This document shows positions 1 through 11,498 of a stretch of DNA of 37,725 nucleotides, in pieces. The position numbers and the translations under genes are program-made. This DNA is from an uncultured Oscillospiraceae bacterium (GTDB taxonomy: Bacteria > Bacillota > Clostridia > Oscillospirales > Ruminococcaceae). The stretch covers positions 1 through 37,725 of the forward strand of contig CASDQY010000032.1 in assembly GCA_949282975.1 (NCBI GenBank). The letters are read 5' to 3'. Each line of letters starts with the position of its first letter. Position 1 is the stretch's first letter. The notes beneath the pieces are model-generated. The model saw nothing but the letters and a program-made list of their open reading frames with translations. It was not told the origin of the DNA and did not search any database.

Positions 1-378
1 TCCCGCCAATTCGGCAGCGGCAATGCAGCTGCTGACGCCGGGAACGGCATAGCCCGCAATCCCGGCTTGCTGCAGAGCCAGTAGTTCCTCTCCGCCACGG
101 CCAAACACGAAGGGATCTCCCCCTTTTAAGCGAACCGTCAAGGGATGCTCCTTGCCACAGGAAATGAGGATTTCATTGATCTCCTGCTGGGAAGCGCTGT
201 GGCGGCCGGAGCGTTTTCCTACAAAAATCTTCCGGCAATCTTGGCGGCACAGCTTTAAAAGGCTGTCGTCCAGCAAGCTGTCATATACCACACAGTCGCA
301 GGCACAAAGCAGCCGGAGCGCTTGCAGTGTAATCGTTTCTTTGCCGCAGCCGGCTCCTACCAATACCACCTGATTCAT
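1..378 (-). CDS. cobA: Uroporphyrinogen-III C-methyltransferase, N-terminal part (cut by window edge)
   Basis: This enzyme makes precorrin-2 from uroporphyrinogen III using two S-adenosylmethionines, the branch point to siroheme and cobalamin. Only the first 126 codons are present and the frame is open at base 1. Reading the minus strand gives MNQVVLVGAGCGKETITLQA (glycine-rich start of the SAM-dependent tetrapyrrole methylase fold), then RLKGGDPFVFGRGGEE near residues 87-102 and PGVSSCIAA, both family hallmarks. The ATG at 378-376 overlaps the hemC stop as ATGA, so it is translationally coupled as the fourth visible operon gene. In many Clostridia cobA is fused to hemD; the missing part would show whether that is so here. 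The family is certain; the full domain layout is unknown. Confidence 0.95.
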   Translation of the reverse strand, partial: MNQVVLVGAGCGKETITLQALRLLCACDCVVYDSLLDDSLLKLCRQDCRKIFVGKRSGRHSASQQEINEILISCGKEHPLTVRLKGGDPFVFGRGGEELLALQQAGIAGYAVPGVSSCIAAAELAG

Positions 379-1166
379 CCGGTCACCTTCTTTACTAACG
401 CCATGATGCTTTCCCGGCCCTTGTATTCTGCCTTTGCCATCCGCCCTTCTTTTTGCACATATAGGGTGGCGCCGTCAAAATAACATCCCACTCCGCCGGT
501 GCAGCCCCCTTCCAAAAGGCGTTGGCAGCTTCGCTCCAGCTTGGCGGCCACGGCTGTGGCGGGATGGTTGACGGCTTCCCCCCATTTCCCTTCCACGGCA
601 ATGATTCCCTGACAGGCTGCCGGAACGCAGTCCTGCACCGGCAAGGGATGGAGCAAAACTTCTTCATCCGAAAAATGTAAGCGAATCAGCCCGGCCATGG
701 CCAGCACCAATGCGTCGCACTCCCCCTGCTTCATTTTCCGAATCCGGGTGTCCACATTGCCACGGATTGGCAGAACCTGAGCGTTGGGATACATTCGGCG
801 GATCGCCGCTTCCCGGCGTGGGGAGCCGGTGCCGATGAGGTTTATTTTTTTGTTTTTCAGAGACAGCAGCACATCCCTTGCATCGGCTCTGGGCAGGCAG
901 AAAAAGTGATCCCGGTCTTCGGTCGTGGGAAGATCTTTGGCGGAATGAACCGCCACATCAATGCTCCCTTCTTTGAGCATTGATGAAAACACATCCGTAA
1001 ATGCGCCCCGGCCAATCTCTGAAAGGGAAGCGGTTTGGTTTTGATCTCCCCGGGTATGCACCACCACCAACTCGGTATCATAGCCCTGCCTCTGGAAAGC
1101 CTGCGCCGCCAGATTTGCCTGGGCCAACGCCAATTTTGAACCTCGTGTCCCGATTTTAATTTTCAT
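375..1166 (-). CDS. hemC: Hydroxymethylbilane synthase (porphobilinogen deaminase)
   Basis: Condenses four porphobilinogens into hydroxymethylbilane. The start MKIKIGTRGSKLALAQ is chosen because AGGAG lies just upstream and the ATG overlaps the previous stop (ATGA); a longer in-frame start 12 codons upstream lacks these. Motifs seen are GTRGSKLALAQ, VHSAKDLPT with the catalytic Asp, GTGSPRRE and IRGNVDTRI. LEGGCTGGVG near residue 222 carries the cysteine that should hold the dipyrromethane cofactor. At 263 residues it is shorter than the roughly 300 typical of the family, mainly in the C-terminal domain. The region around GDQNQTASLSEIGRGAFTD is more divergent than usual. It lies in the hemA-sirC-hemC-cobA operon. 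Confidence 0.96.
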   Translation of the reverse strand: MKIKIGTRGSKLALAQANLAAQAFQRQGYDTELVVVHTRGDQNQTASLSEIGRGAFTDVFSSMLKEGSIDVAVHSAKDLPTTEDRDHFFCLPRADARDVLLSLKNKKINLIGTGSPRREAAIRRMYPNAQVLPIRGNVDTRIRKMKQGECDALVLAMAGLIRLHFSDEEVLLHPLPVQDCVPAACQGIIAVEGKWGEAVNHPATAVAAKLERSCQRLLEGGCTGGVGCYFDGATLYVQKEGRMAKAEYKGRESIMALVKKVTG

Positions 1167-1717
1167 GCTTTCTCCTCTTCCACCAGAGATTCCTTCAACC
1201 ACTGCTTTACCTGCCGGGCATAATCGGCGGAGGGGATCGTTCCTCGGAGTTCTGCCGCTTTTCGGGTGAGTTCTTCCAGGTTTTTCGGCAGCAAAGCATC
1301 CAGATATTCCCGCAGCGCCCCCGCCAAAGCCGGGGAGGCGCCGCCGGTGGTGATGCCGATGGTCACCGGACCCCGGTGAATCAAAGCGGGAAAATAAAAA
1401 TCGCAGTTTTCCTTGTCGTCCACACTGTTTACCGGGATGTTCCGCCTGCGGCAGTCGGAGGCCACCTGTCCGTTGAGGGCAGCGTCGTCGGTGGCCGCAA
1501 TGGCAAAATCCATCCCTTCCAGCAGAAAATCCCCATATTCCGATGCCGCCGCCTTTACTCCCAAAGCGGTCAGCTCACTGCAAACCTCTCGAGCGCAGAG
1601 AACCAGGTTGACCCCAAACGGCAGCAGTTTTTCTGCCTTGCGGGCGGCCACTTTTCCGCCGCCCACCAGCAGGCACCGTCTGCCTTCCACCGGGATCATA
1701 AAGGGAAAACAATTCAT
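1163..1717 (-). CDS. Precorrin-2 dehydrogenase / siroheme synthase N-domain (SirC/CysG-N/Met8 family)
   Basis: An NAD-dependent enzyme that oxidises precorrin-2 to sirohydrochlorin; some relatives also insert iron. The 184-residue protein opens with MIPVEGRRCLLVGGGKVAAR, the Rossmann glycine motif GGGKVAARKAEKL of this family. It continues with AATDDAALNGQV, the VNSVDD segment, DFYFPALIHRGPVTIGI and TTGGASPALAG. It stops after the C-terminal helical part, so there is no fused methyltransferase as in enteric CysG; that activity is encoded separately by cobA two genes on. Start and stop are both four-base overlaps with neighbours. The pairing with siroheme-type reductases upstream favours siroheme as product. 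Whether it also acts as ferrochelatase cannot be told from the sequence. Confidence 0.93.
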   Translation of the reverse strand: MNCFPFMIPVEGRRCLLVGGGKVAARKAEKLLPFGVNLVLCAREVCSELTALGVKAAASEYGDFLLEGMDFAIAATDDAALNGQVASDCRRRNIPVNSVDDKENCDFYFPALIHRGPVTIGITTGGASPALAGALREYLDALLPKNLEELTRKAAELRGTIPSADYARQVKQWLKESLVEEEKA

Positions 1718-2781
1718 GGCGCTTCCTCCCCAAAACGACGAGCCATTGCCTGTAAAAATTCTGCCGGATCTTCTTTGTGCAGGCGGTAAAGCGCCTGCCG
1801 CTGGGATGGCTCCAGTGTATCCAGCCGGGCGGCATATTGCCGGGCGGTTTCATCCCCACGGTATTCCAGCAGGCAGATTTCGGTCAATTCCTTTACCGCC
1901 TGGATTTCCCGTTGTTTTAAGCGGTTGTTTTCCTCCGCCGCCGTGCGCAGATCGTCGATTCCAATTCGCCGGCACCGGGGAAGCTGTTCCACCCCGGGAT
2001 CAATATCAGGGGGCACTGACAGGTCTAAGAACAATCGTTCTTTTGGCGTAAAGAGATTTTGACGCACTCCCTCCAAGGTCAAAACCGTGTGGGGGGACGC
2101 TGTACAGCAAAGTACCACATCCGCCTGATCCAAGGACTGATAGCGTTGCTCATAAGGAAGGGTGCGCTCCTCTTCCCTTTTGTGGCTGCGGGAAGTTAAC
2201 AGTAAGGTCAAATCCTTGCGGCACTGTAAATTTTTATATACGGCCGTTCCGATTTGTCCGGATGCGCCGATCAGCAGCACCGTTTTTTCCGGCGGGCCGA
2301 AATGAAACACTTCATTGGCCGCCAGCGTGGCCACGGAACAGGCCAGAGAAGATATTTTTGTTTCACTGCGCACCCGCTTGCCGCAGGCAATGGCCGCTTG
2401 AAATACGGTGTCCATTCCTTGGGTCAAACCGGCCTGCCTTGCCAGTTCGTAGCTGTTTTTCAGCTGGCCCAGAATTTCGTCCTCTCCAATGAGCATACTT
2501 TCCAACCCTGCCGCCAGAGAGAACAGATGTTCCACGGCTCCCCAGCCGGTAAAAAAGGCAAATCCTTCGGGCGGTTGCCCGGCGGCTTGGGCCAGCAGCT
2601 GCTCCGCTTGCCCCTGGGAGCAAAGAAAATACAGCTCCGTTCGATTGCAGGTACACAGCAGCACACAGCCCCCAAAAGGCCGAAAGGATTCCATCAGAGC
2701 AATCCGTTTTCCTTCCGGGAAAGCAAATATTTTTCGATAGGAAACTTTGGCAAGTTTATAATGGATAGTCAGACAATTCAT
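1714..2781 (-). CDS. hemA: Glutamyl-tRNA reductase
   Basis: First step of C5 tetrapyrrole synthesis, reducing Glu-tRNA to glutamate-1-semialdehyde. The catalytic cysteine is in LLCTCNRTELYFL (Cys45). AAGLESMLIGEDEILGQLK is the glutamate/tRNA binding signature. LIGASGQIGTAVYKNL starts the NADPH domain and LFLDLSVPPDIDP follows. At 355 residues it is short for the family, which is usually above 400, with a reduced C-terminal dimerisation region. An AAAGG ribosome site precedes the ATG. It is the first gene of the siroheme operon. The 220-base leader upstream has no riboswitch I recognise. Confidence 0.96.
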   Translation of the reverse strand: MNCLTIHYKLAKVSYRKIFAFPEGKRIALMESFRPFGGCVLLCTCNRTELYFLCSQGQAEQLLAQAAGQPPEGFAFFTGWGAVEHLFSLAAGLESMLIGEDEILGQLKNSYELARQAGLTQGMDTVFQAAIACGKRVRSETKISSLACSVATLAANEVFHFGPPEKTVLLIGASGQIGTAVYKNLQCRKDLTLLLTSRSHKREEERTLPYEQRYQSLDQADVVLCCTASPHTVLTLEGVRQNLFTPKERLFLDLSVPPDIDPGVEQLPRCRRIGIDDLRTAAEENNRLKQREIQAVKELTEICLLEYRGDETARQYAARLDTLEPSQRQALYRLHKEDPAEFLQAMARRFGEEAP

Positions 2782-3002: not shown

Positions 3003-3980
3003 TCAGCAGCTTGCGCCGCCAACCACAGTTTTGTTTAAAATGCCGGCTTTATCTACGCTGCCGCTCAGCAGCTTTTCTTCCACATACGCAAAGCCCAGGC
3101 GCTCCACCGTATCCGAAAGCCGTTCCCCGGTGATGCCTTCATCCCGGAAAAACAGAATGGTTCGTTCCACCAGATCAATTACCTCTTCTTCCGACAGGAA
3201 GATCTTGTTCAGCGGTTTGCCGAAGGCCACCTTCTTGCCCCACCGCCCGGCGATGTACACCTTATAACCGGTAGTATAGGTTTCCGTGACCCCAAAGGGA
3301 CATCTATTTTTGCACCGGCCGCAGTTGTTGCACTGATTGGCATCTACATTCAGTTTTCCGTCAACCAGCTTTGCCACCTGAATGGGACAATTCTGTTCCA
3401 CCTGGCAGACTTTGCAGCCTCTGCATTTGGAATAATCAAAGTTCGGCACCCGCTGGCCCACGATGCCCAAATCGTTGAGATTGGGTTTTACGCAGTTGTT
3501 GGGACATCCTCCCACTGCAATTTTAAATTTGTGAGGCAGAACCACGTTGCGATAGCCTTCATAGAAAGTTTTGTGGAGCTTCTGGGACAGATCAAAGGTG
3601 TCGATCAGGCCGTACTGGCAGGTGGTTCCCTTGCAGGACACCACCGGGCGCACCTTGCTGCCGGTGCCGCCGATGTCCATCCCCGCCTGCTGAAGTTTGG
3701 CACGCAGGGGTTCAATGTTGGCCAAGGGCACCTGCTGGATCTCCAGGGTAAGGCGGGTGGTCATAGCCGTGACGCCGTTGCCGTATTCTTTGGCCAGGTT
3801 GGCAATCAGGGCCATTTCCTTGGCGGTAATTTTGCCGTTGCGGGTAATGACCCGCAGGTTAAAGCAGTCCGGCGTGGTTTTATCCCAAAGCGCTCCCAGG
3901 CCTTTGACCCGCTTTACTTCCTCCGGAGAAACGGAGGGCTTATTCTTTTGAAACTCCCGATTGGTATTTAATTCCAACAT
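3003..3980 (-). CDS. AsrC-like siroheme [4Fe-4S] sulfite/nitrite reductase family protein with two ferredoxin clusters
   Basis: A 325-residue protein of the siroheme-Fe/S reductase family. The N-terminal part has MTTRLTLEIQ, the siroheme-contact region. Cluster cysteines sit in VSCKGTTCQYG (Cys116, Cys121) and GGCPNNCVKP (Cys159, Cys163). A two-cluster ferredoxin insert follows: CRGCKVC plus CP (186, 189, 192, 198) and CNNCGRCKNRCP (217-227). The C-terminus closes the sulfite reductase fold and ends GGASC. The size and inserted ferredoxin resemble anaerobic sulfite reductase subunit C, but no asrA or asrB is present. Its neighbour carries a close copy as its C-terminal domain; I count 67 identical residues of 76 from GGTGSKVRPV to VGQRVP. 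AAGGAGGA precedes the ATG, 14 bases after the fusion gene's stop. Its substrate (sulfite, nitrite or another sulfur species) is unknown. Confidence 0.9.
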   Translation of the reverse strand: MLELNTNREFQKNKPSVSPEEVKRVKGLGALWDKTTPDCFNLRVITRNGKITAKEMALIANLAKEYGNGVTAMTTRLTLEIQQVPLANIEPLRAKLQQAGMDIGGTGSKVRPVVSCKGTTCQYGLIDTFDLSQKLHKTFYEGYRNVVLPHKFKIAVGGCPNNCVKPNLNDLGIVGQRVPNFDYSKCRGCKVCQVEQNCPIQVAKLVDGKLNVDANQCNNCGRCKNRCPFGVTETYTTGYKVYIAGRWGKKVAFGKPLNKIFLSEEEVIDLVERTILFFRDEGITGERLSDTVERLGFAYVEEKLLSGSVDKAGILNKTVVGGASC

Positions 3981-3994
3981 AATTTCGTCCTCCT

Positions 3995-6571
3995 TCAGCA
4001 GTTTGCTCCGCCGGTCACGGTTTGTTTTAAGTTCTCATCCTTTTCCGTCAAAAGGCTGTCGCTTAGCAGCATTTCCTCCACATAGGGCAGACCCAGGCGG
4101 GCCACCGTATCGGCAAACCGTTCGCCGGTGATGCCTTCTTTGCGGAACAGCAAGATGGCTTTTTCCACCACATTCAGGACTTCCTCTTCGGAGGTGACGA
4201 TTTTGCTCAGCGGCTGACCCTGCTGCACCTTTTTGCCCCAGCGTCCGCCAACATAAACCTGATACCCGGCGGTGAATTCTTTCATTACGCCAAAGGGGCA
4301 GGTATCCAGACAGCGACCGCAATGGTTGCAGGAATCGGGATTGATGTCAACCTTGCCGTTGACCAGCTTAGCAGTATGGATGGGGCAGTTTTTCTCCACC
4401 TGGCAGACTTTGCAGCCCCGGCAAAGATCCAAATTGGGATGGGGCACCCGCTGGCCCACAATGCCGATGTCGTTGAGGCTGGGTTTCACGCAATTGTTGG
4501 GACATCCTCCCACGGCGATCTTAAATTTATGGGGCAGCACCACCTGATGATATCCTTCGTAGAACCGTTCATGGATGATTTGGGAGAGATGGAAGGTGTC
4601 GATCAGACCGTACTGACAGGTGGTTCCCTTGCAGGACACCACCGGGCGCACCTTGCTGCCGGTTCCGCCGGTGGACAGGCCGTAACCGGCCAAAAATTCC
4701 ATCATTTCTTCCAGCTTATCATAGGGGACGCTTTGAATTTCCAGGGTCAAACGGGTGGTCATAGTCACTTCCCCGTTGCCGTATTTTTCGGCAGCCTGAG
4801 CCACAGCAAGCTGTTCTTCGGCGGTCAGACGGCCGTTGCGGGTAATCACACGGACATTGAACCGATCCTCTGTGCGCTTGTCCCAAAGGCATCCCAGCGC
4901 CTTGACCCGTTTCATATCGTCGGGGGATAATTTTCCCTTCTTTTTCACTTCCACCCGATTGACGGTAATGCCGCCTTCCAGCACCCGGGTGTTGGTGTAT
5001 CCCGCCGCTTTCATCCGGTTTTGCAGGAAATACCCCCGCTTGCCCCGGGCGCAGACTAAGAGCAGCTTGGCATCCTGATCGGGACATTCCGGAATGATAC
5101 CGTTCACTTTGGTCAGGTCCACCCATTGAGCATTGGGAATGGTGGGGGCAGGCATGGCGTCGATGACCTGGTAGCCTTTGGCCTTTCCGTCCAGGTATTC
5201 CCGGGGAGAGATGGTTTCAAATTCTCCGGAAAGCTTGTTTTCCAGAATGTACACCGCCTGGACGAAGGGATGAATGGCGGTGGAAAAGGGCGGGGCATAC
5301 GCAAAATCCAGGGTATCGAATTGCTCCAGCACAGCGTTCATGGCAATGCCGGTTACGGCAATGTCCACCATTTTATCCACTTCCCCACTGCCCAGCACCT
5401 GAATGCCTAAAAGGCGGTGGGTGGAACGATCTGCAATGAGTTTGGTAACAAAGAAGGCAGAATCCGGATAGTAATGCGCCTTGTCGTCGGTAACGCAGAC
5501 CACCGAAACGGCATCCAGCCCAGCCTGTTTGGCCTGTGCTTCAGTCAGCCCGGTGCGGCCGCCCTTTAAGGATTCAGAGAGCTTTACCACAGCGGTGCCG
5601 AGACACCCGCCGTAAACCTTGCCGCCGCCGACCAGCTGTTCCGCCAGAACACGAGCGGAGATATTTGCCGTAGAGCCCATAGGGGACCATTGTGCTGCGC
5701 CGGTCAGCTGGTTCTTTACCATGGCGCAGTCCCCGGCGGCATATACGTCGGGCAGATTGGTTTCCATCCGGTCATTGACGACCACCGTGCCCTTGAACAA
5801 TTCCAGGCCGGTATCGGCTAAAAAGCCGGTGTTGGGGCGCACGCCGATGCAGAGCACCACCAGGTCCGCCTTTAAATGGCCGTTGGTGGTGGTGACGGAA
5901 AAACCATCTTCTGTCTTTTCCAGCTTGCTTAAAGCGGTGCCCAGCAGGATTTTACTGCCGGTTTCCGTGAGTCGGCGTTTGGCATACTCCGCCATTTCGC
6001 TGTCAAAAATGCCGGGCAGAATTTGGTCGGCCAGATCAATCATGGTGACGTTCAAGCCCAGTTTCTGCAAGTTTTCTCCCACTTCCAGGCCGATGAAACC
6101 GCAGCCCACCACCAAGGCGGTGCGGCAGGAATGTTCTTGGATGTAATCTTTTGCGCCCTGGGCATCGTCAGGCGTCCGCATGGTAAAAACGCCGGGCAGA
6201 TCGCAGCCTTCCAGATTGGGGACAATGGGAGAAGCGCCGGTGGCGATGACAAGCTTATCATATCCTTCCTGGAATACAGTTCCGTCCTCCCCACGGACAG
6301 AAACCATTTTCTGCGCTGCATCCAGGCCGATGGCTTCGGCACCGGTGATCACTTCGGCGCCGGTGAGGGCGGAAAACTTTTCCGGGGTGTTGACAATCAG
6401 TTCATCCCGTGTGGGAATCATGCCGCTGATGTAATACGGCAGGCCGCACCCTGCATAGGATACATCTTTGCTTTTGGTAATGATCTTTACTTCCAGATCC
6501 CGGTCTATGCGCTTCAATTTGGCAGCTGCTTTGGTGCCTGCGGCTACCCCGCCGATCACAAGAACTTTCAT
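3995..6571 (-). CDS. CoA-disulfide-reductase-like flavoprotein / rhodanese / AsrC-like siroheme reductase fusion
   Basis: An 858-residue, three-part protein. Residues 1-445 are a class III pyridine nucleotide-disulfide reductase: GGVAAGTKAAAKLKR for FAD, Cys42 in SYAGCGLPYY as in CoA-disulfide reductase and NADH oxidase, GCGFIGLEVGENL for NAD(P)H, and DVYAAGDCA. Residues about 452-540 are rhodanese-like with Cys507 in VCARGKRGYF. Residues about 545-858 repeat the AsrC-like domain: Cys647, 652, 690, 694, then ferredoxin clusters at 717-729 and 748-758. The tail ends GGANC. CoADR-rhodanese fusions are known for persulfide handling. The added siroheme domain suggests NAD(P)H electrons passing to sulfur species within one chain; that is inference. 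AGGAGGT precedes the ATG. It is first in a two-gene unit divergent from a LysR-type gene. Confidence 0.93.
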   Translation of the reverse strand: MKVLVIGGVAAGTKAAAKLKRIDRDLEVKIITKSKDVSYAGCGLPYYISGMIPTRDELIVNTPEKFSALTGAEVITGAEAIGLDAAQKMVSVRGEDGTVFQEGYDKLVIATGASPIVPNLEGCDLPGVFTMRTPDDAQGAKDYIQEHSCRTALVVGCGFIGLEVGENLQKLGLNVTMIDLADQILPGIFDSEMAEYAKRRLTETGSKILLGTALSKLEKTEDGFSVTTTNGHLKADLVVLCIGVRPNTGFLADTGLELFKGTVVVNDRMETNLPDVYAAGDCAMVKNQLTGAAQWSPMGSTANISARVLAEQLVGGGKVYGGCLGTAVVKLSESLKGGRTGLTEAQAKQAGLDAVSVVCVTDDKAHYYPDSAFFVTKLIADRSTHRLLGIQVLGSGEVDKMVDIAVTGIAMNAVLEQFDTLDFAYAPPFSTAIHPFVQAVYILENKLSGEFETISPREYLDGKAKGYQVIDAMPAPTIPNAQWVDLTKVNGIIPECPDQDAKLLLVCARGKRGYFLQNRMKAAGYTNTRVLEGGITVNRVEVKKKGKLSPDDMKRVKALGCLWDKRTEDRFNVRVITRNGRLTAEEQLAVAQAAEKYGNGEVTMTTRLTLEIQSVPYDKLEEMMEFLAGYGLSTGGTGSKVRPVVSCKGTTCQYGLIDTFHLSQIIHERFYEGYHQVVLPHKFKIAVGGCPNNCVKPSLNDIGIVGQRVPHPNLDLCRGCKVCQVEKNCPIHTAKLVNGKVDINPDSCNHCGRCLDTCPFGVMKEFTAGYQVYVGGRWGKKVQQGQPLSKIVTSEEEVLNVVEKAILLFRKEGITGERFADTVARLGLPYVEEMLLSDSLLTEKDENLKQTVTGGANC

Positions 6572-6610
6572 TTTTTTACCTCCTGCTTTTTCCGGGTGAA
6601 TTCCGATACC

Positions 6611-6639
6611 TTGATTTTACCACAGAATCATGATAAAAT
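6611..6639 (+). promoter_or_regulatory. Sigma-A promoter of the LysR-type gene, in the divergent control region
   Basis: TTGATT at 6611-6616, a 17-base spacer and TAAAAT at 6634-6639, giving a leader of about 45 bases before the ATG at 6692. The 120-base divergent gap must also hold the promoter for the fusion gene. I see no good sigma-A match on the minus strand, as expected if that promoter needs activation. Confidence 0.65.
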
Positions 6640-6691
6640 TTCACTTAATGTTGTTATGCTTTGATTTGATTTTCTTATGGATGGTGGCAAT

Positions 6692-7567
6692 ATGATTGAT
6701 TACAGAATTTACACATTTTTAAGCCTTTGTGAAACGATGAATTACCGCAAAACTTCGGAAAAGCTCAATATTTCCCAGCCTGCCGTAACTCAGCACATTC
6801 ATGCCCTGGAACAGGAATACGGAGAAAAGCTGTTTTTTTATTCCGGGCGGGTGCTGCATAAAACAGAAGCGGCGGAGCAGTTGGAGGAGTACTCCAAAAC
6901 CATGCTGTTTTATGAAAACGAGCTCCGCACCAGCCTGAAGGGAAAAAGCGAGATTATGCTGCGCATCGGCGCCACCAAAACCATAGGGGAATTTGTATTG
7001 GAGCAGCAGCTGATCCAATTTCTGTCCGAGCCAAACCACAATCTGCAATTCGTCATTGACAACACCCAGGTGCTGCTGACTATGTTGGAACGAAACCAAC
7101 TGGACTTTGCCATTGTAGAGGGTTTTTTTGAGAAGAAAAAATACGGCTACGCCGCCTATTCCCTCTATCGGGAGGAGCCGTTTTTGGGGGTTTGCTCGGT
7201 AAACCACCCCTTTGCCGGCAAAGATATTCCGTTTCAGGATATTTTGGACGAAACCCTGGTGCTACGGGAAAACGGTTCCGGAACCCGTGCCATTTTCGAA
7301 CAGATCCTTGCCGTGAACAACAGCAGTGTGGATGACATCAAAAAGGTGATCTGCGTCAACTCCTTTGCCGTAATCAAACAGCTTGTGGCAGCGGACATGG
7401 GCATTACCTTTGCCTATGAAGCGGTGGCCAACAGCGACAGCCGCCTGACTACCTTCACTGTGCAAAACAACCATCGGAAAAAAGAGTTTAATTATGTATA
7501 CCTGAAAAACACCGATGCGGACAAAAAAATCCGGCTGTTCGAGGGCAATTGTAAAAGCCGCAATTGA
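6692..7567 (+). CDS. LysR-type transcriptional regulator
   Basis: A 291-residue LysR-family regulator. The N-terminal winged helix-turn-helix is clear: IYTFLSLCETMNYRKTSEKL, then NISQPAVTQHIHALEQEYGEKLF over residues about 5-55. A coiled linker and a periplasmic-binding-protein-like effector domain follow to the end. The start MIDYRIYTF is preferred over one five codons upstream because family members begin a few residues before the first helix and GGTGG lies at a suitable distance. It is divergent from the siroheme reductase unit, the standard arrangement for a LysR regulator and its target. By analogy with CysB and its kin it may respond to a sulfur or nitrogen metabolite. The effector is unknown. 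Confidence 0.92.
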   Translation: MIDYRIYTFLSLCETMNYRKTSEKLNISQPAVTQHIHALEQEYGEKLFFYSGRVLHKTEAAEQLEEYSKTMLFYENELRTSLKGKSEIMLRIGATKTIGEFVLEQQLIQFLSEPNHNLQFVIDNTQVLLTMLERNQLDFAIVEGFFEKKKYGYAAYSLYREEPFLGVCSVNHPFAGKDIPFQDILDETLVLRENGSGTRAIFEQILAVNNSSVDDIKKVICVNSFAVIKQLVAADMGITFAYEAVANSDSRLTTFTVQNNHRKKEFNYVYLKNTDADKKIRLFEGNCKSRN

Positions 7568-8273: not shown

Positions 8274-8665
8274 GAATGGGGTTCTTGCTCAATCTTCGAA
8301 AACCCAGTGACAGTATATCCTAAGCCGGTAACAATTTTGCGCAATGATTCTTCCTGTTGTTCCTGCTTGGCGGAAATGACCGCTTCTTTCTTATGCCGGT
8401 TCACCCGGGCATAGAGGCCGTCCTGCTTATGAAAAGCGTTCTGGATGCGATAAACACAGTTTTGGCAGGTCATTCCCTGAATGTCCAAGTGGTACCGATA
8501 CGGATAATGGGACAAATCACGATCCTGAGGATAGATGGGTTTTATCTCGTCCCCTGCTCCACAGCAGCCGGTGGTAGCCCGGCGGATCATAGAGCGAATG
8601 CCAATGAGGAGAATCACGAAGATAATCAGTGAAATAATGACAGTGGATACAATGCCCGTGTCCAT
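8270..8665 (-). CDS. Membrane-anchored heavy-metal-associated (HMA) domain protein
   Basis: A 131-residue protein. Residues about 5-24 form one membrane helix (VSTVIISLIIFVILLIGI). Next come a basic stop-transfer segment and GCCGAGDE, a cysteine pair like that in FeoB-associated cysteine-rich membrane proteins. Residues about 58-122 are an HMA ferredoxin-like fold with the metal site in IQGMTCQNCVYRI, and GLGYTV near the end. This suggests a tethered copper- or other soft-metal carrier or sensor. No P-type ATPase or feoAB lies beside it, so the partner is unknown. GGGAG precedes the ATG. Metal-responsive control is likely from the inverted repeats in its promoter. Confidence 0.85.
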   Translation of the reverse strand: MDTGIVSTVIISLIIFVILLIGIRSMIRRATTGCCGAGDEIKPIYPQDRDLSHYPYRYHLDIQGMTCQNCVYRIQNAFHKQDGLYARVNRHKKEAVISAKQEQQEESLRKIVTGLGYTVTGFSKIEQEPHS

Positions 8666-8679
8666 TTTAACACTCCCTT

Positions 8680-8715
8680 ATTATAGATGCAGCTAATCTG
8701 ATTAGTATTCACTAA
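8680..8715 (-). promoter_or_regulatory. Promoter and candidate metal-repressor operator
   Basis: On the minus strand TATAAT lies at 8685-8680. Directly upstream two inverted repeats overlap: CTAATC-T-GATTAG (8693-8705) and TTAGT-ATTC-ACTAA (8702-8715). They cover the -35 region, which has no consensus hexamer. TTAG/CTAA half-sites are the style of DtxR/MntR-type repressors. Assignment to any one family is inference. Confidence 0.6.
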
Positions 8716-8774
8716 CATCATTGTATTCCTTTTTCCGACTCCTGTCAAGAGGCATCCCATCTATTTAACAAAAC

Positions 8775-8800
8775 AACCCCCGGGCATAAGGCCGGGGGTT
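8775..8800 (-). terminator. Terminator of tRNA-Gly
   Basis: Minus-strand 9-bp stem AACCCCCGG/CCGGGGGTT with an eight-base loop, followed by TTGTTTTGTT, starting just past the CCA end. Confidence 0.85.
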
Positions 8801-8803
8801 TCC

Positions 8804-8877
8804 TGGAGCGAACGACGGGAATCGAACCCGCAAATCCAGCTTGGGAAGCTAGTGTTTTGCCATTGAACTACGTTCGC
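8804..8877 (-). tRNA. tRNA-Gly (anticodon CCC)
   Basis: Cloverleaf on the minus strand: acceptor GCGAACG/CGTTCGC, anticodon stem CTAGC/GCTGG with loop TTCCCAA (anticodon CCC, reading GGG), T stem GCGGG/CCCGT with loop TTCGATT. Encoded CCA. A single-gene unit with its own promoter and terminator. Confidence 0.96.
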
Positions 8878-8886
8878 AACGACGTT

Positions 8887-8915
8887 ATTATACTACAACG
8901 CCGGGAAAATTGCAA
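8887..8915 (-). promoter_or_regulatory. Promoter of tRNA-Gly
   Basis: Minus-strand TTGCAA (8915-8910), 17-base spacer and TATAAT (8892-8887), nine bases before the tRNA 5' end. Confidence 0.87.
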
Positions 8916-8941
8916 GCTTTTTTTGCAGGGGTTCATACTGC

Positions 8942-9487
8942 TTAAACCGGTAAGGCGTTCGGGACGCAGAAAGAGAATACCGCATCAATGCAAAACAGCG
9001 TTCCCAATCCCCCGTCAATCAGAATTTTGTACCGTTTTGGGATCTGGGCAAATAGCTTTTTCAGCCGTGGATACAAAAAGTATGCTAAAAATAACCCCGC
9101 TATGCCGAAAATCAGAAGATTTGTGGCACAGATCCGACCATTCAAATTCAGCGGTTCATTGTTGTAATCCCACCACCTGGTGTGATACACCGATTCCAGT
9201 ACCCAGGAAGTTACATATTCCAGCACGCCGGAAATTGCAACGCAGGCCAAGAAATAAATCCATCGCTTCTCCGGCAGATGTTCTTTCATCCAGATCATCA
9301 ACACGCTTCCGCAGCCGTAAATAGGAAGCCAGGGGCCGTGCAAAAAGCCCCGGTCTCCTAAGGTGCCGCTGAGAAACCACACAACAATGACTTCCCAAAT
9401 CCATCCAATGGCGCTGACAACAAAAAATACTAAGATTAAGTCCAGCCAATATTCGCTGTCGGATTTACGGTTTATTTTTGTTCTCAT
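8942..9487 (-). CDS. CmpB-like integral membrane protein (putative ABC-transporter type IV family)
   Basis: A 181-residue membrane protein with about five hydrophobic segments. Landmarks are LILVFFVVSAIGWIWEVI, RGFLHGPWLPIYGCGSVLMI, ACVAISGVLEYVTSWVLE, RWWDYNN and the later LLIFGIAGLFLAYFLYPRLK. The order WxWE, FLxGPWLPIYG, LEYVTSWxLE, WWDYNN is the signature of the CmpB/DUF1113 family. Despite the Pfam name, its transport role is unproven. GGGAG precedes the ATG. It is not clearly linked to its neighbours, a tRNA downstream and the suf pair upstream with its own terminator. Confidence 0.85.
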   Translation of the reverse strand: MRTKINRKSDSEYWLDLILVFFVVSAIGWIWEVIVVWFLSGTLGDRGFLHGPWLPIYGCGSVLMIWMKEHLPEKRWIYFLACVAISGVLEYVTSWVLESVYHTRWWDYNNEPLNLNGRICATNLLIFGIAGLFLAYFLYPRLKKLFAQIPKRYKILIDGGLGTLFCIDAVFSFCVPNALPV

Positions 9488-9789
9488 GCCTTAATCTCCC
9501 TTCTCCAAAAACAATTCGGTTCAAGGAATTTTTCCAAATTCTTCGACATTTTTTCGGATAAATTTCCTTTTTTCTTAGGATAACGGATATTTTAGCAAAA
9601 GAATTTTAAAAGATTAACCGTAAATTATATCTAAATTGAAAACAGATTCCTTCCTGCTCCTTCCAACAGTGTATGTAGCCGGAAAAATTTTGACAACTTC
9701 TCCGTCCGACCGAATTTCAGCAAAAAAACAACCCCCGTCTGCGTGGACGAGAGCTGCAATCATGAAATTTTTTATTTTCTACTGACTTA
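9488..9789. other. AT-rich intergenic region between sufB and the CmpB-like gene
   Basis: About 300 bases without a gene. The right end holds the suf terminator. The middle is AT-rich and should hold the minus-strand promoter of the CmpB-like gene. Candidates are TTAATC-17-TAAAAT with an extended TGC, and a TATAAT near 9625 without a matching -35. No RNA fold or repeat of note was seen. Confidence 0.5.
9722..9753 (-). terminator. Terminator of the sufC-sufB unit
   Basis: Minus-strand stem CTCTCGTC/GACGGGGG (8 bp with wobbles, six-base loop), followed by TTGTTTTTTTG. Confidence 0.75.
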
Positions 9790-10707
9790 TTACTTTAAGA
9801 AACCGGCAATGATTTTAGCTTCCGCCTCTTCCTCCGTAAGACCCAATGTGCGGAGCTTGAGGATCTGTTCACCGGCGATTTTGCCGATAGCGGCTTCGTG
9901 AATCAAAGCGGCTTCCTGATGATTGGCGGTAAGCTCTGGCGCAGCGTCAACCCGCCCTTCTTCCGCCAGAATGGCATCGCATTCCGAATGGCCGGCGCAG
10001 GGGGCGTTGCCCACGATGCGGGAACGGTAAGCCTGATAGGAATGGCCCCGGGCCACGGAACGGGAAATCAGGTTGACGCTGGAATCTTCCCCGTTCATTT
10101 CCACTTCAAATTCCGTTTTGGCCTGTTGTTCGCCATCGGTCAGGATTCGCTCCCGGATAATCAAGGTGGCGCCTTTTCCCACCACGCCGGAGGTTTTCCG
10201 AATCGTGTGATCCACGCCGCCAAGCTGAAGGGAATCCATCTCCAGTTCAGAGCCTTCTTCCAAATAGATCTCGGTCACCGGATCAATGGAACGCTGGCCC
10301 AAACCGTTGCCGGTTCCCACATGCTTTTCCTGATAGATCACATGGGAGTTCTTGGACAGGAAAAAGCGGTGAATGCCGTTGTGCCGGGCAGGTTCTCCTG
10401 TTTCCAGATGCACGCCGCAGCCGGCGACAATCAGTACGTCCGCCCCTTCCCCGACGAAAAAGTCGTTGTAAACGATATCGTCCACGCCGCCATGTGTGAC
10501 GCAGGCGGGAATGGACACCGTTTCCCCCTTGGTTCCGGGCAGGATGTGAATTTCCAGACCGGGGGCATCGGTCTTACTTTCAATCCGGATATGTTCCGTG
10601 GATTTCCGACCGGCGCAGCCGCCGTTTTCCCGGATGTTATAAGCGCCTTCGTAGCCGTCTTTATAGTCGGAAACCTGTCTTAATAGTTCCTTGGTGATTT
10701 CATTCAT
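9790..10707 (-). CDS. SufB/SufD-family Fe-S cluster scaffold protein
   Basis: A 305-residue SufBD-fold protein, the beta-helix scaffold that works with SufC in Fe-S cluster assembly. The C-terminal core is typical: GHSYQAYRSRIVGNAPCAGH, SECDAIL, the conserved histidine in LIHEAAIGKIAG, and LGLTEEEAEAKIIAGFL. It is much shorter than SufB of full SUF operons (over 450 residues) and resembles the SufB of two-gene systems. The start MNEITKELLRQ has GGAGGG upstream; the frame stays open another 47 codons upstream inside sufC, which is not credible as coding. It overlaps sufC by eight bases. No sufS, sufU or second SufBD gene is present, so a homomeric SufB with SufC is likely. Confidence 0.93.
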   Translation of the reverse strand: MNEITKELLRQVSDYKDGYEGAYNIRENGGCAGRKSTEHIRIESKTDAPGLEIHILPGTKGETVSIPACVTHGGVDDIVYNDFFVGEGADVLIVAGCGVHLETGEPARHNGIHRFFLSKNSHVIYQEKHVGTGNGLGQRSIDPVTEIYLEEGSELEMDSLQLGGVDHTIRKTSGVVGKGATLIIRERILTDGEQQAKTEFEVEMNGEDSSVNLISRSVARGHSYQAYRSRIVGNAPCAGHSECDAILAEEGRVDAAPELTANHQEAALIHEAAIGKIAGEQILKLRTLGLTEEEAEAKIIAGFLK

Positions 10708-11443
10708 GAGGCCGCCCTCCAAAATTGATTTCTTTCTTTGCGCATTGCGGGCATCCGGTCTCTTCTGCCAAAAGATGTGGCAGCATTTTCGAAGCGGGAC
10801 CCTGATCGGTGATTTGGCCGTCGGCAATGACGACGATTTCATCCGCAATGGCCAAAATCCGCTCCTGGTGGGAGATGATGATGGAAGTGCCGGACTGGGA
10901 TTCTTTCATGGACTGGAATACGCCGATAAGATTGTGGAAGCTCCACAAGTCAATTCCGGCTTCCGGCTCGTCAAACACCGAAAGCTTGCTGTGCCGGGCA
11001 AGCACGGTTGCCAGTTCGATCCGCTTGATTTCCCCGCCGGACAAAGTAGCGTTTACTTCCCGATCGACGTAATCTCGGGCGCACAGGCCCACCTGCACCA
11101 AATAACTGCAGGCTTCGTCCTTGGAAAGGGTTTTGCCGGCAGCCAGCTCCAGAAGATTGGCCACCGTTAAGCCCTTAAACCGCACCGGCTGCTGAAACGC
11201 ATAGCTGATGCCCAATTTGGCTCGCTGGGTGACATCCAGATCGGTGATGTCCTGGTCATCCAGATAGATGCGGCCGGAATCCGGTTTCTCCAAACCGGAA
11301 ATCAGCTTGGCCAGGGTTGTTTTACCCCCGCCGTTAGGGCCGGTGATAACCACCAGCTTATGATCGGGAACCACCAGATCGATTCCCTTTAAAACCGAAC
11401 TGCCGCCCGGAGCAGTCCAGGTAATTTGTTTTAATGTGAGCAA
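10700..11443 (-). CDS. sufC: SufC-like Fe-S assembly ATPase
   Basis: An ABC ATPase with SufC features: Walker A GPNGGGKTT, Q-loop AFQQPVRFKGLTV, signature LSGGEIKRIE, Walker B SVFDEPEAGIDL and the switch histidine in IISHQ. EPEAGIDLWSF and ELAAGKTL are typical of SufC rather than transporter ATPases. The start is probably TTG at 11443-11441, six bases after AGAGGTG; a GTG three codons further upstream lies inside that ribosome site. The C-terminal tail TGCPQCAKKE contains a CPxC pair, unusual for SufC and possibly metal-binding. It is the first gene of the two-gene suf unit. Confidence 0.93.
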   Translation of the reverse strand: MLTLKQITWTAPGGSSVLKGIDLVVPDHKLVVITGPNGGGKTTLAKLISGLEKPDSGRIYLDDQDITDLDVTQRAKLGISYAFQQPVRFKGLTVANLLELAAGKTLSKDEACSYLVQVGLCARDYVDREVNATLSGGEIKRIELATVLARHSKLSVFDEPEAGIDLWSFHNLIGVFQSMKESQSGTSIIISHQERILAIADEIVVIADGQITDQGPASKMLPHLLAEETGCPQCAKKEINFGGRPHE

Positions 11444-11498
11444 ATAAAACACCTCTTTGCTGTTTGATGGGAAATGGAAGCTTTTTGGCTTCTTAGTA

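Follow-up and report, generated by a model that had tools for sequence, protein, structure and literature searches.

A gene of an uncultured Oscillospiraceae bacterium (Clostridia) joins a flavoprotein of the coenzyme A (CoA)-disulfide reductase (CoADR) type, a rhodanese, and a siroheme reductase with two ferredoxin clusters in one chain of 858 residues. We found it in contig CASDQY010000032.1 (assembly GCA_949282975.1), analysed here from position 1 to 37,725; this window is the entire contig of an 85%-complete assembly. The fusion gene is read on the minus strand from 6571 to 3995, as a single unbroken frame that begins with an ATG, whereas the plus strand has nine stops across the same interval. 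The three-part architecture proposed in an initial annotation, made from the sequence alone, was borne out by Pfam, which matched Pyr_redox_2 (residues 1-294, 199 bits), Pyr_redox_dim (337-433), Rhodanese (465-536), NIR_SIR_ferr (565-628), and NIR_SIR (638-829, 108 bits), with Fer4 models at about 713-763, inside NIR_SIR. The assignments of Cys42 (SYAGCGLPYY) and Cys507 (CARGKR) in that annotation were also correct. To these features we add a tandem siroheme paralogue (3003-3980), a downstream operon for siroheme synthesis, a divergent LysR gene, and a C-terminal cysteine, Cys858 (Table 1).

Table 1. Features of the fusion gene and its surroundings, and importer loci of other genomes (aa, amino acids).
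Feature	Coordinates	Strand	Evidence
Fusion gene: CoADR/NPSR-type flavoprotein, rhodanese, siroheme/2x[4Fe-4S] reductase, 858 aa	3995..6571	-	Open reading frame, Pfam, relatives, purifying selection
FAD/NAD(P)H CoA-(per)sulfide reductase module, residues 1-445 (redox Cys42, Tyr367/Tyr425)	5237..6571	-	Pfam, PDB matches, Foldseek, invariant residues
Rhodanese module, residues 446-537 (persulfide Cys507 in dibasic loop CA[KR]GKR)	4961..5236	-	Pfam Rhodanese, loop comparison
Siroheme-[4Fe-4S] sulfite reductase module, residues 560-835 (Cys 647/652/690/694, R574/R607/R642/K682/K684)	4067..4894	-	Pfam NIR_SIR, alignment with Fsr 7npa, invariance
Ferredoxin insert, two [4Fe-4S] (Cys 717/720/723/729 and 748/751/754/758)	4298..4423	-	Pfam Fer4 models, invariance
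Codon of C-terminal Cys858 in GGA[NST]C tail	3998..4000	-	Conservation among relatives
Stand-alone siroheme reductase paralogue, 325 aa	3003..3980	-	64% identical to fusion residues 535-858
hemA, glutamyl-tRNA reductase	1714..2781	-	Pfam/NCBIfam
sirC, precorrin-2 dehydrogenase (siroheme synthase N-terminal domain)	1163..1717	-	PF13241 and TIGR01470 over cut-off
hemC, porphobilinogen deaminase	375..1202	-	PF01379 and TIGR00212 over cut-off
cobA (uroporphyrinogen-III C-methyltransferase), cut by contig end	1..378	-	TIGR01469 match 4-372, 151 bits; reading frame
Divergent promoter region, fusion/LysR (by position alone)	6572..6676	.	Sequence
Divergent LysR-type regulator, probable regulator of the fusion	6677..7567	+	Pfam; divergent LysR in other genera
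Importer loci beside siroheme reductases	L007:8590-11319, L071:5950-9345, L074:9456-12321, about 28 more

The two halves of the fusion belong to known kinds of enzymes

A sequence search of the PDB split the chain in two: residues 1-540 matched persulfide and CoA-disulfide reductases and residues 564-833 matched F420-dependent sulfite reductases (Fsr), with no PDB chain among the matches listed covering both halves. The nearest solved relatives of the first half are NADH-dependent persulfide reductase (NPSR) and CoA-persulfide reductase (CoAPR), with E-values of 1e-91 to 1e-88. It shares with this group, which includes CoADR-rhodanese proteins (PDB 6pfz, 8a56, 3nta, 3icr), the fold, the pair of tyrosines, the Pyr_redox_2 and dimerisation domains with a single redox cysteine at about residue 42-43, and the C-terminal rhodanese with its active cysteine (weak Pfam score, invariant Cys507). 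Cys42, Tyr367, Tyr425, and Cys507 are all invariant among the 42 fused relatives over which we judged conservation. In NPSRs the sulfur passes from the rhodanese cysteine to CoA and then to the cysteine at the flavin, where sulfide is released (PMC7969121). An AlphaFold model of the fusion (35 aligned sequences, mean pLDDT 80.9, pTM 0.63) aligned with the CoA-persulfide reductase 8a56 over 542 columns with a Foldseek TM of 0.92 of the target, which confirms the predicted persulfide-reductase half. Its confidence drops around the siroheme site, since the prediction contains no cofactors.

The fusion differs from NPSR and CoAPR in three respects. It has about 300 additional C-terminal residues, which form the siroheme/Fe-S reductase, and it scores 376 bits with the CoA-disulfide reductase equivalog TIGR03385, below the cut-off of 578.8. 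Its rhodanese loop, CA[KR]GKR, is dibasic in almost every fused protein. Split forms have a loop like it, but CxxGLR is found at this place in the majority of ordinary NPSRs nearby. Such a dibasic loop would suit an anionic sulfur donor such as thiosulfate.

The nearest solved relatives of the C-terminal half are group I Fsr sulfite reductases (7npa, 7np8), which are likewise flavoprotein-siroheme fusions with a ferredoxin insert in a C-terminal siroheme domain. Aligned column by column with 7npa, R574, R607, R642, K682, and K684 of the fusion correspond to Arg355, Arg388, Arg423, Lys460, and Lys462. All five are invariant among the fused relatives, as are the four siroheme cysteines and the eight cysteines of the ferredoxin insert. 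In Fsr, R355, R423, K460, and K462 bind sulfite, and Arg388 has been described as characteristic of the assimilatory type of sulfite reductase (PMC10229431). The fusion thus has the two siroheme-[4Fe-4S] cysteine pairs and the four positive sulfite-binding residues of the Fsr type. The first pair is spaced CX4C, with one alignment gap to Fsr, where it is described as CX5C (PMC10229431). The flavin partner is different: the fusion has no F420H2 oxidase module, and its N-terminus is instead a Pyr_redox_2 protein, i.e., an NAD(P)H persulfide reductase followed by a rhodanese. No C-terminal cysteine arm was seen in the aligned Fsr.

The fusion resembles AsrABC in its AsrC-type siroheme protein with ferredoxin clusters. 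The label "AsrC-like" given by the initial annotation is nonetheless a loose one, since the score with TIGR02912 (AsrC) is 98 bits against a cut-off of 324 and Fsr is the closest relative of known structure. A Pyr_redox_2 flavoprotein is fused to a siroheme domain in NirB as well, and the NirB model (TIGR02374) matches the chain in three stretches, but with 219.6 bits for a cut-off of 578. Unlike NirB, the fusion has a rhodanese and a redox cysteine, and the Pfam scan revealed no Fer2_BFD or other [2Fe-2S] relay domain in it. Scores with DsrA and DsrB (TIGR02064 and TIGR02066) were 86 and 93 bits for cut-offs of 393 and 342. We therefore rejected membership of AsrC, NirB, Fsr, and DsrAB, as in each case a defining feature is missing (scores, partners, or modules). 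The fusion falls below every NCBIfam equivalog cut-off that we examined, so it would escape searches for dsrAB or asrABC. Judged from sequence, the architecture is that of an NPSR plus an Fsr-type sulfite reductase, both of known kinds, in a combination for which we found no description. We found no paper in the open-access literature (subscription journals were not covered) that combines CoA-disulfide reductase, rhodanese, and siroheme, nor any description of such a fusion.

The fusion recurs and is under selection

A copy with 88% identity is present in Candidatus Egerieicola pullicola, and four cultured isolates encode the fusion at 61-64% identity (Ructibacterium gallinarum, Lachnoclostridium An76 and An169, and Mediterraneibacter catenae). 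The survey of genomes for the same architecture, which the initial annotation had proposed, identified full-length, single-frame fusions in 18 of the 295 genomes of an even sample of the order, and in three of the 249 genomes of a sample of the phylum (the genome under study is counted in both). One of these three is a closed single contig (G537). The carriers are Lachnospiraceae and Oscillospiraceae, and their records come mostly from the chicken gut. Relatives on plasmids were only ordinary CoADR-rhodanese proteins, none of which spanned 80% of the query. Comparison with the Egerieicola copy gave ratios of nonsynonymous to synonymous substitution rates (dN/dS) of 0.05 for the whole chain, 0.02 for the siroheme half, and 0.02 for the linker between rhodanese and siroheme domains. 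The fusion is under strong purifying selection, and the value for the linker indicates that this includes the joint itself. A join of two separate genes during sequencing or assembly, the artefact that the initial annotation had in mind, is ruled out by the cultured isolates, the closed genome, and the low dN/dS.

Genomic context of the fusion

The fusion is the first of a series of genes on the minus strand, followed by the paralogue and by hemA-sirC-hemC-cobA, which encode siroheme synthesis. A similar group, hemA-cysG-hemC-cobA/hemD, is part of the sulfur cluster of Ruminococcus bromii (PMC6378601). With 355 aa, the hemA product is short, and its score lies slightly below the equivalog cut-off (187.5 vs 209.6 bits). 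The paralogue starts 14 bases past the fusion and retains every cofactor and sulfite residue as well as the C-terminal cysteine. It is probably a duplicate of the C-terminal half of some fusion, because it groups among the fused proteins in a tree of siroheme domains (81 rows). It might be a partner subunit of the fusion.

In other genera, LysR genes 46-52% identical to that of the window are also divergent from the fusion. The order in genus g25 is LysR (divergent, 46% identical), fusion and, 17 bases on, a gene of the YeiH family (PF03601, L072:9327-10385). YeiE and YeiH are a sulfite sensor and sulfite-resistance pair in Salmonella (PMC12880088), and by analogy the arrangement in g25 suggests a response to sulfite. 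Elsewhere in the window (9790-11452, same strand), a protein with a SufB/D core and an ABC ATPase (SufC-like) place genes for Fe-S assembly close to the operon of the Fe-S enzyme.

The fusion and its tandem paralogue are the only siroheme reductases that we found in the 85%-complete genome. This genome has no match to AsrA, matches AsrB with only 57 bits (cut-off 289), and has no match to the PAPS-reductase family, for which reason we discarded sulfate assimilation as the source of sulfite. Nothing else that we found in it would do the work of AsrABC, in agreement with the suggestion of the initial annotation that the fusion could replace these proteins. Architecture, conserved residues, and genome content together also support its proposal of a reductase of sulfite, or of persulfide or thiosulfate.

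A putative two-site reductase of thiosulfate and sulfite

We propose that the fusion is a cytoplasmic reductase with two sites that would turn both sulfite and sulfane sulfur, most likely the two halves of thiosulfate, into sulfide. Rhodaneses cleave thiosulfate, which yields sulfite and sulfane sulfur. In the fusion, Cys507 would take the outer sulfur of thiosulfate (or the sulfur of a persulfide or polysulfide), and sulfite would be released when the donor is thiosulfate. The sulfane sulfur would travel on bound CoA to Cys42 and, in the NPSR reaction, be released as sulfide by NAD(P)H via FAD (flavin adenine dinucleotide). Sulfite, perhaps handed over within the chain, would undergo a six-electron reduction at the siroheme-[4Fe-4S] centre. 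This centre would be fed through the two ferredoxin clusters, and we favour ferredoxin as the donor; the FAD module may be another. Given an Fsr-type sulfite reductase on an NPSR chain, both products of thiosulfate could become sulfide. Separate rhodanese and Asr proteins reduce thiosulfate in Halanaerobium (PMC5497025), and the chemistry proposed there is the same, i.e., the rhodanese splits thiosulfate and the siroheme enzyme reduces sulfite; unlike in the fusion, no NAD(P)H persulfide reductase is part of the chain. The two-site reading draws on the architecture, the conserved cofactor and substrate residues, the operon with siroheme synthesis, and the missing alternatives in the genome, and we regard its chances of being right or wrong as evenly balanced. 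If right, gut Clostridia would have a single-gene route from thiosulfate or sulfite to hydrogen sulfide. The fusion also offers a marker gene, cultured carriers (M. catenae and R. gallinarum), and a clean question on the coupling of flavin and siroheme.

The source of the electrons for the siroheme separates this reading from that of the initial annotation, which had drawn a linear path that starts at NAD(P)H, runs over flavin, persulfide carrier, and Fe-S, and ends at siroheme. That path mixes the route of sulfur with the route of electrons, since the persulfide of a rhodanese carries sulfur and not electrons. Besides, about 40 of the sampled genomes encode a siroheme protein 43-67% identical to that of the fusion with no CoADR-rhodanese gene nearby, hence this domain is evidently able to draw its electrons from another source. 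A related alternative close to the annotated electron path is a self-contained, NirB-like NAD(P)H:sulfite or nitrite reductase, with electrons flowing from NAD(P)H to FAD, [4Fe-4S], and siroheme, and with secondary roles for the rhodanese and Cys42. The joining of Pyr_redox_2 and siroheme domains, the three stretches matched by the NirB model, and the lack in this genome of AsrA and of an AsrB over the cut-off are consistent with such an enzyme. Yet the NirB score is far under the cut-off, the relay domain is absent, siroheme proteins occur without the module, and a pure electron donor would have no need of the invariant Cys42, the two tyrosines, and the rhodanese cysteine. We consider the NirB-like enzyme unlikely.

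Several observations weigh against the two-site reductase. The CoADR module is not obligatory, as many relatives consist of the siroheme protein alone. The rhodanese domain scores just over its gathering threshold (23.9 vs 22.2 bits), a marginal value. Fsr-type relatives can also reduce nitrite (PMC9295563), which may by analogy be a substrate here. The best NCBIfam model for the LysR of the window is one for selenium metabolism (136 bits, against 86 bits for YeiE), with all scores below cut-off, and the adjacency of YeiH and the fusion was found in a single genus. Finally, genes missing from an 85%-complete genome are weak evidence.

The C-terminal cysteine

Cys858 is the last residue of the chain, after a GG hinge, in 41 of the 42 fused relatives. 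The ends GGA[NST]C or GAKC were present in 18 of the 19 fused and all three split proteins of the genome set, and the tandem paralogue also ends with a cysteine. Among 44 stand-alone siroheme proteins, 41 have no C-terminal cysteine, and each of the other three is encoded no more than about 3 kb from a CoADR-rhodanese gene. When corrected for the tree, the association between cysteine and CoADR module was not significant (3.7 of five independent pairs agreed and none opposed, p = 0.125), so it is suggestive only that the conserved cysteine accompanies the CoADR-rhodanese module.

A terminal cysteine of this kind would fit an arm like that of DsrC. The siroheme site might then reduce sulfite only in part and load the sulfur on a built-in swinging arm ending in Cys858, from which it would pass to Cys507, CoA, and Cys42, to be unloaded by the rhodanese and the NAD(P)H-dependent CoADR module. 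If true, a single polypeptide would run the entire relay from sulfite to sulfide, which takes several proteins in sulfate reducers. The distribution of the cysteine argues for this relay, but the independent events are few, one fused protein (G112) lacks the terminal cysteine, and R607 (Arg388 in Fsr) is the trait of assimilatory enzymes, which release sulfide directly. The AlphaFold model, being cofactor-free and of low confidence at the siroheme site, says nothing on the reach of the arm. We see the internal relay as very unlikely, and retain the two-site reductase as the preferred reading.

Probable origin and losses of the fusion

In the tree of siroheme domains, adjacent but split pairs of CoADR-rhodanese and siroheme genes (e.g., L027, L036-L038, and L129) were placed outside the main fused groups. 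Therefore, adjacency of the two genes probably preceded their fusion. Stand-alone proteins branch within the fused ones, which are thus no exclusive clade of their own, and later losses of one half are likely. Five loci of Mediterraneibacter (L031:1976-3616, L032, L034, L035, and L039) lack any nearby siroheme domain and encode the CoADR-rhodanese half alone, at about 59% identity.

The split pairs (also L127) and the versions lacking either the siroheme or the CoADR half would be expected if the chain held two separate enzymes joined for co-expression, i.e., a polysulfide-detoxifying NPSR and a ferredoxin-dependent sulfite reductase with no common substrate. This is quite improbable in our view, because the fusion was kept in several families, its linker is as constrained as the siroheme half, and the C-terminal cysteine follows the CoADR module.

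An importer beside siroheme reductases in genomes lacking hemC

Of the 64 usable genomes with this siroheme reductase, 36 lack hemC, and in 31 of these an ABC importer resembling BtuFCD/IsdE (Peripla_BP_2, FecCD, ABC_tran) adjoins the reductase; the same holds for none of the 28 hemC-encoding genomes (Fisher p = 2e-13). The association held over independent pairs of the tree (7.7 of 10 agreed, none opposed, median p = 0.008). In locus L007, the substrate-binding protein of the importer is encoded at 8590-9561. A clear sirC (>70 bits) was found in all four hemC-encoding genomes checked and in one of the 29 hemC-lacking genomes checked (G170). G090 has a weaker sirC candidate, and in both G170 and G090 the gene is beside the importer. 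The genome under study synthesizes tetrapyrroles and has no such importer beside the fusion. A search of the open-access literature returned no paper on siroheme import. The simplest reading of these gene associations is that the importer would bring in siroheme, or precorrin-2/sirohydrochlorin where sirC remains; the rival is a general importer of cobamides or haem. If siroheme is indeed imported, it would be a cofactor shared among gut bacteria.

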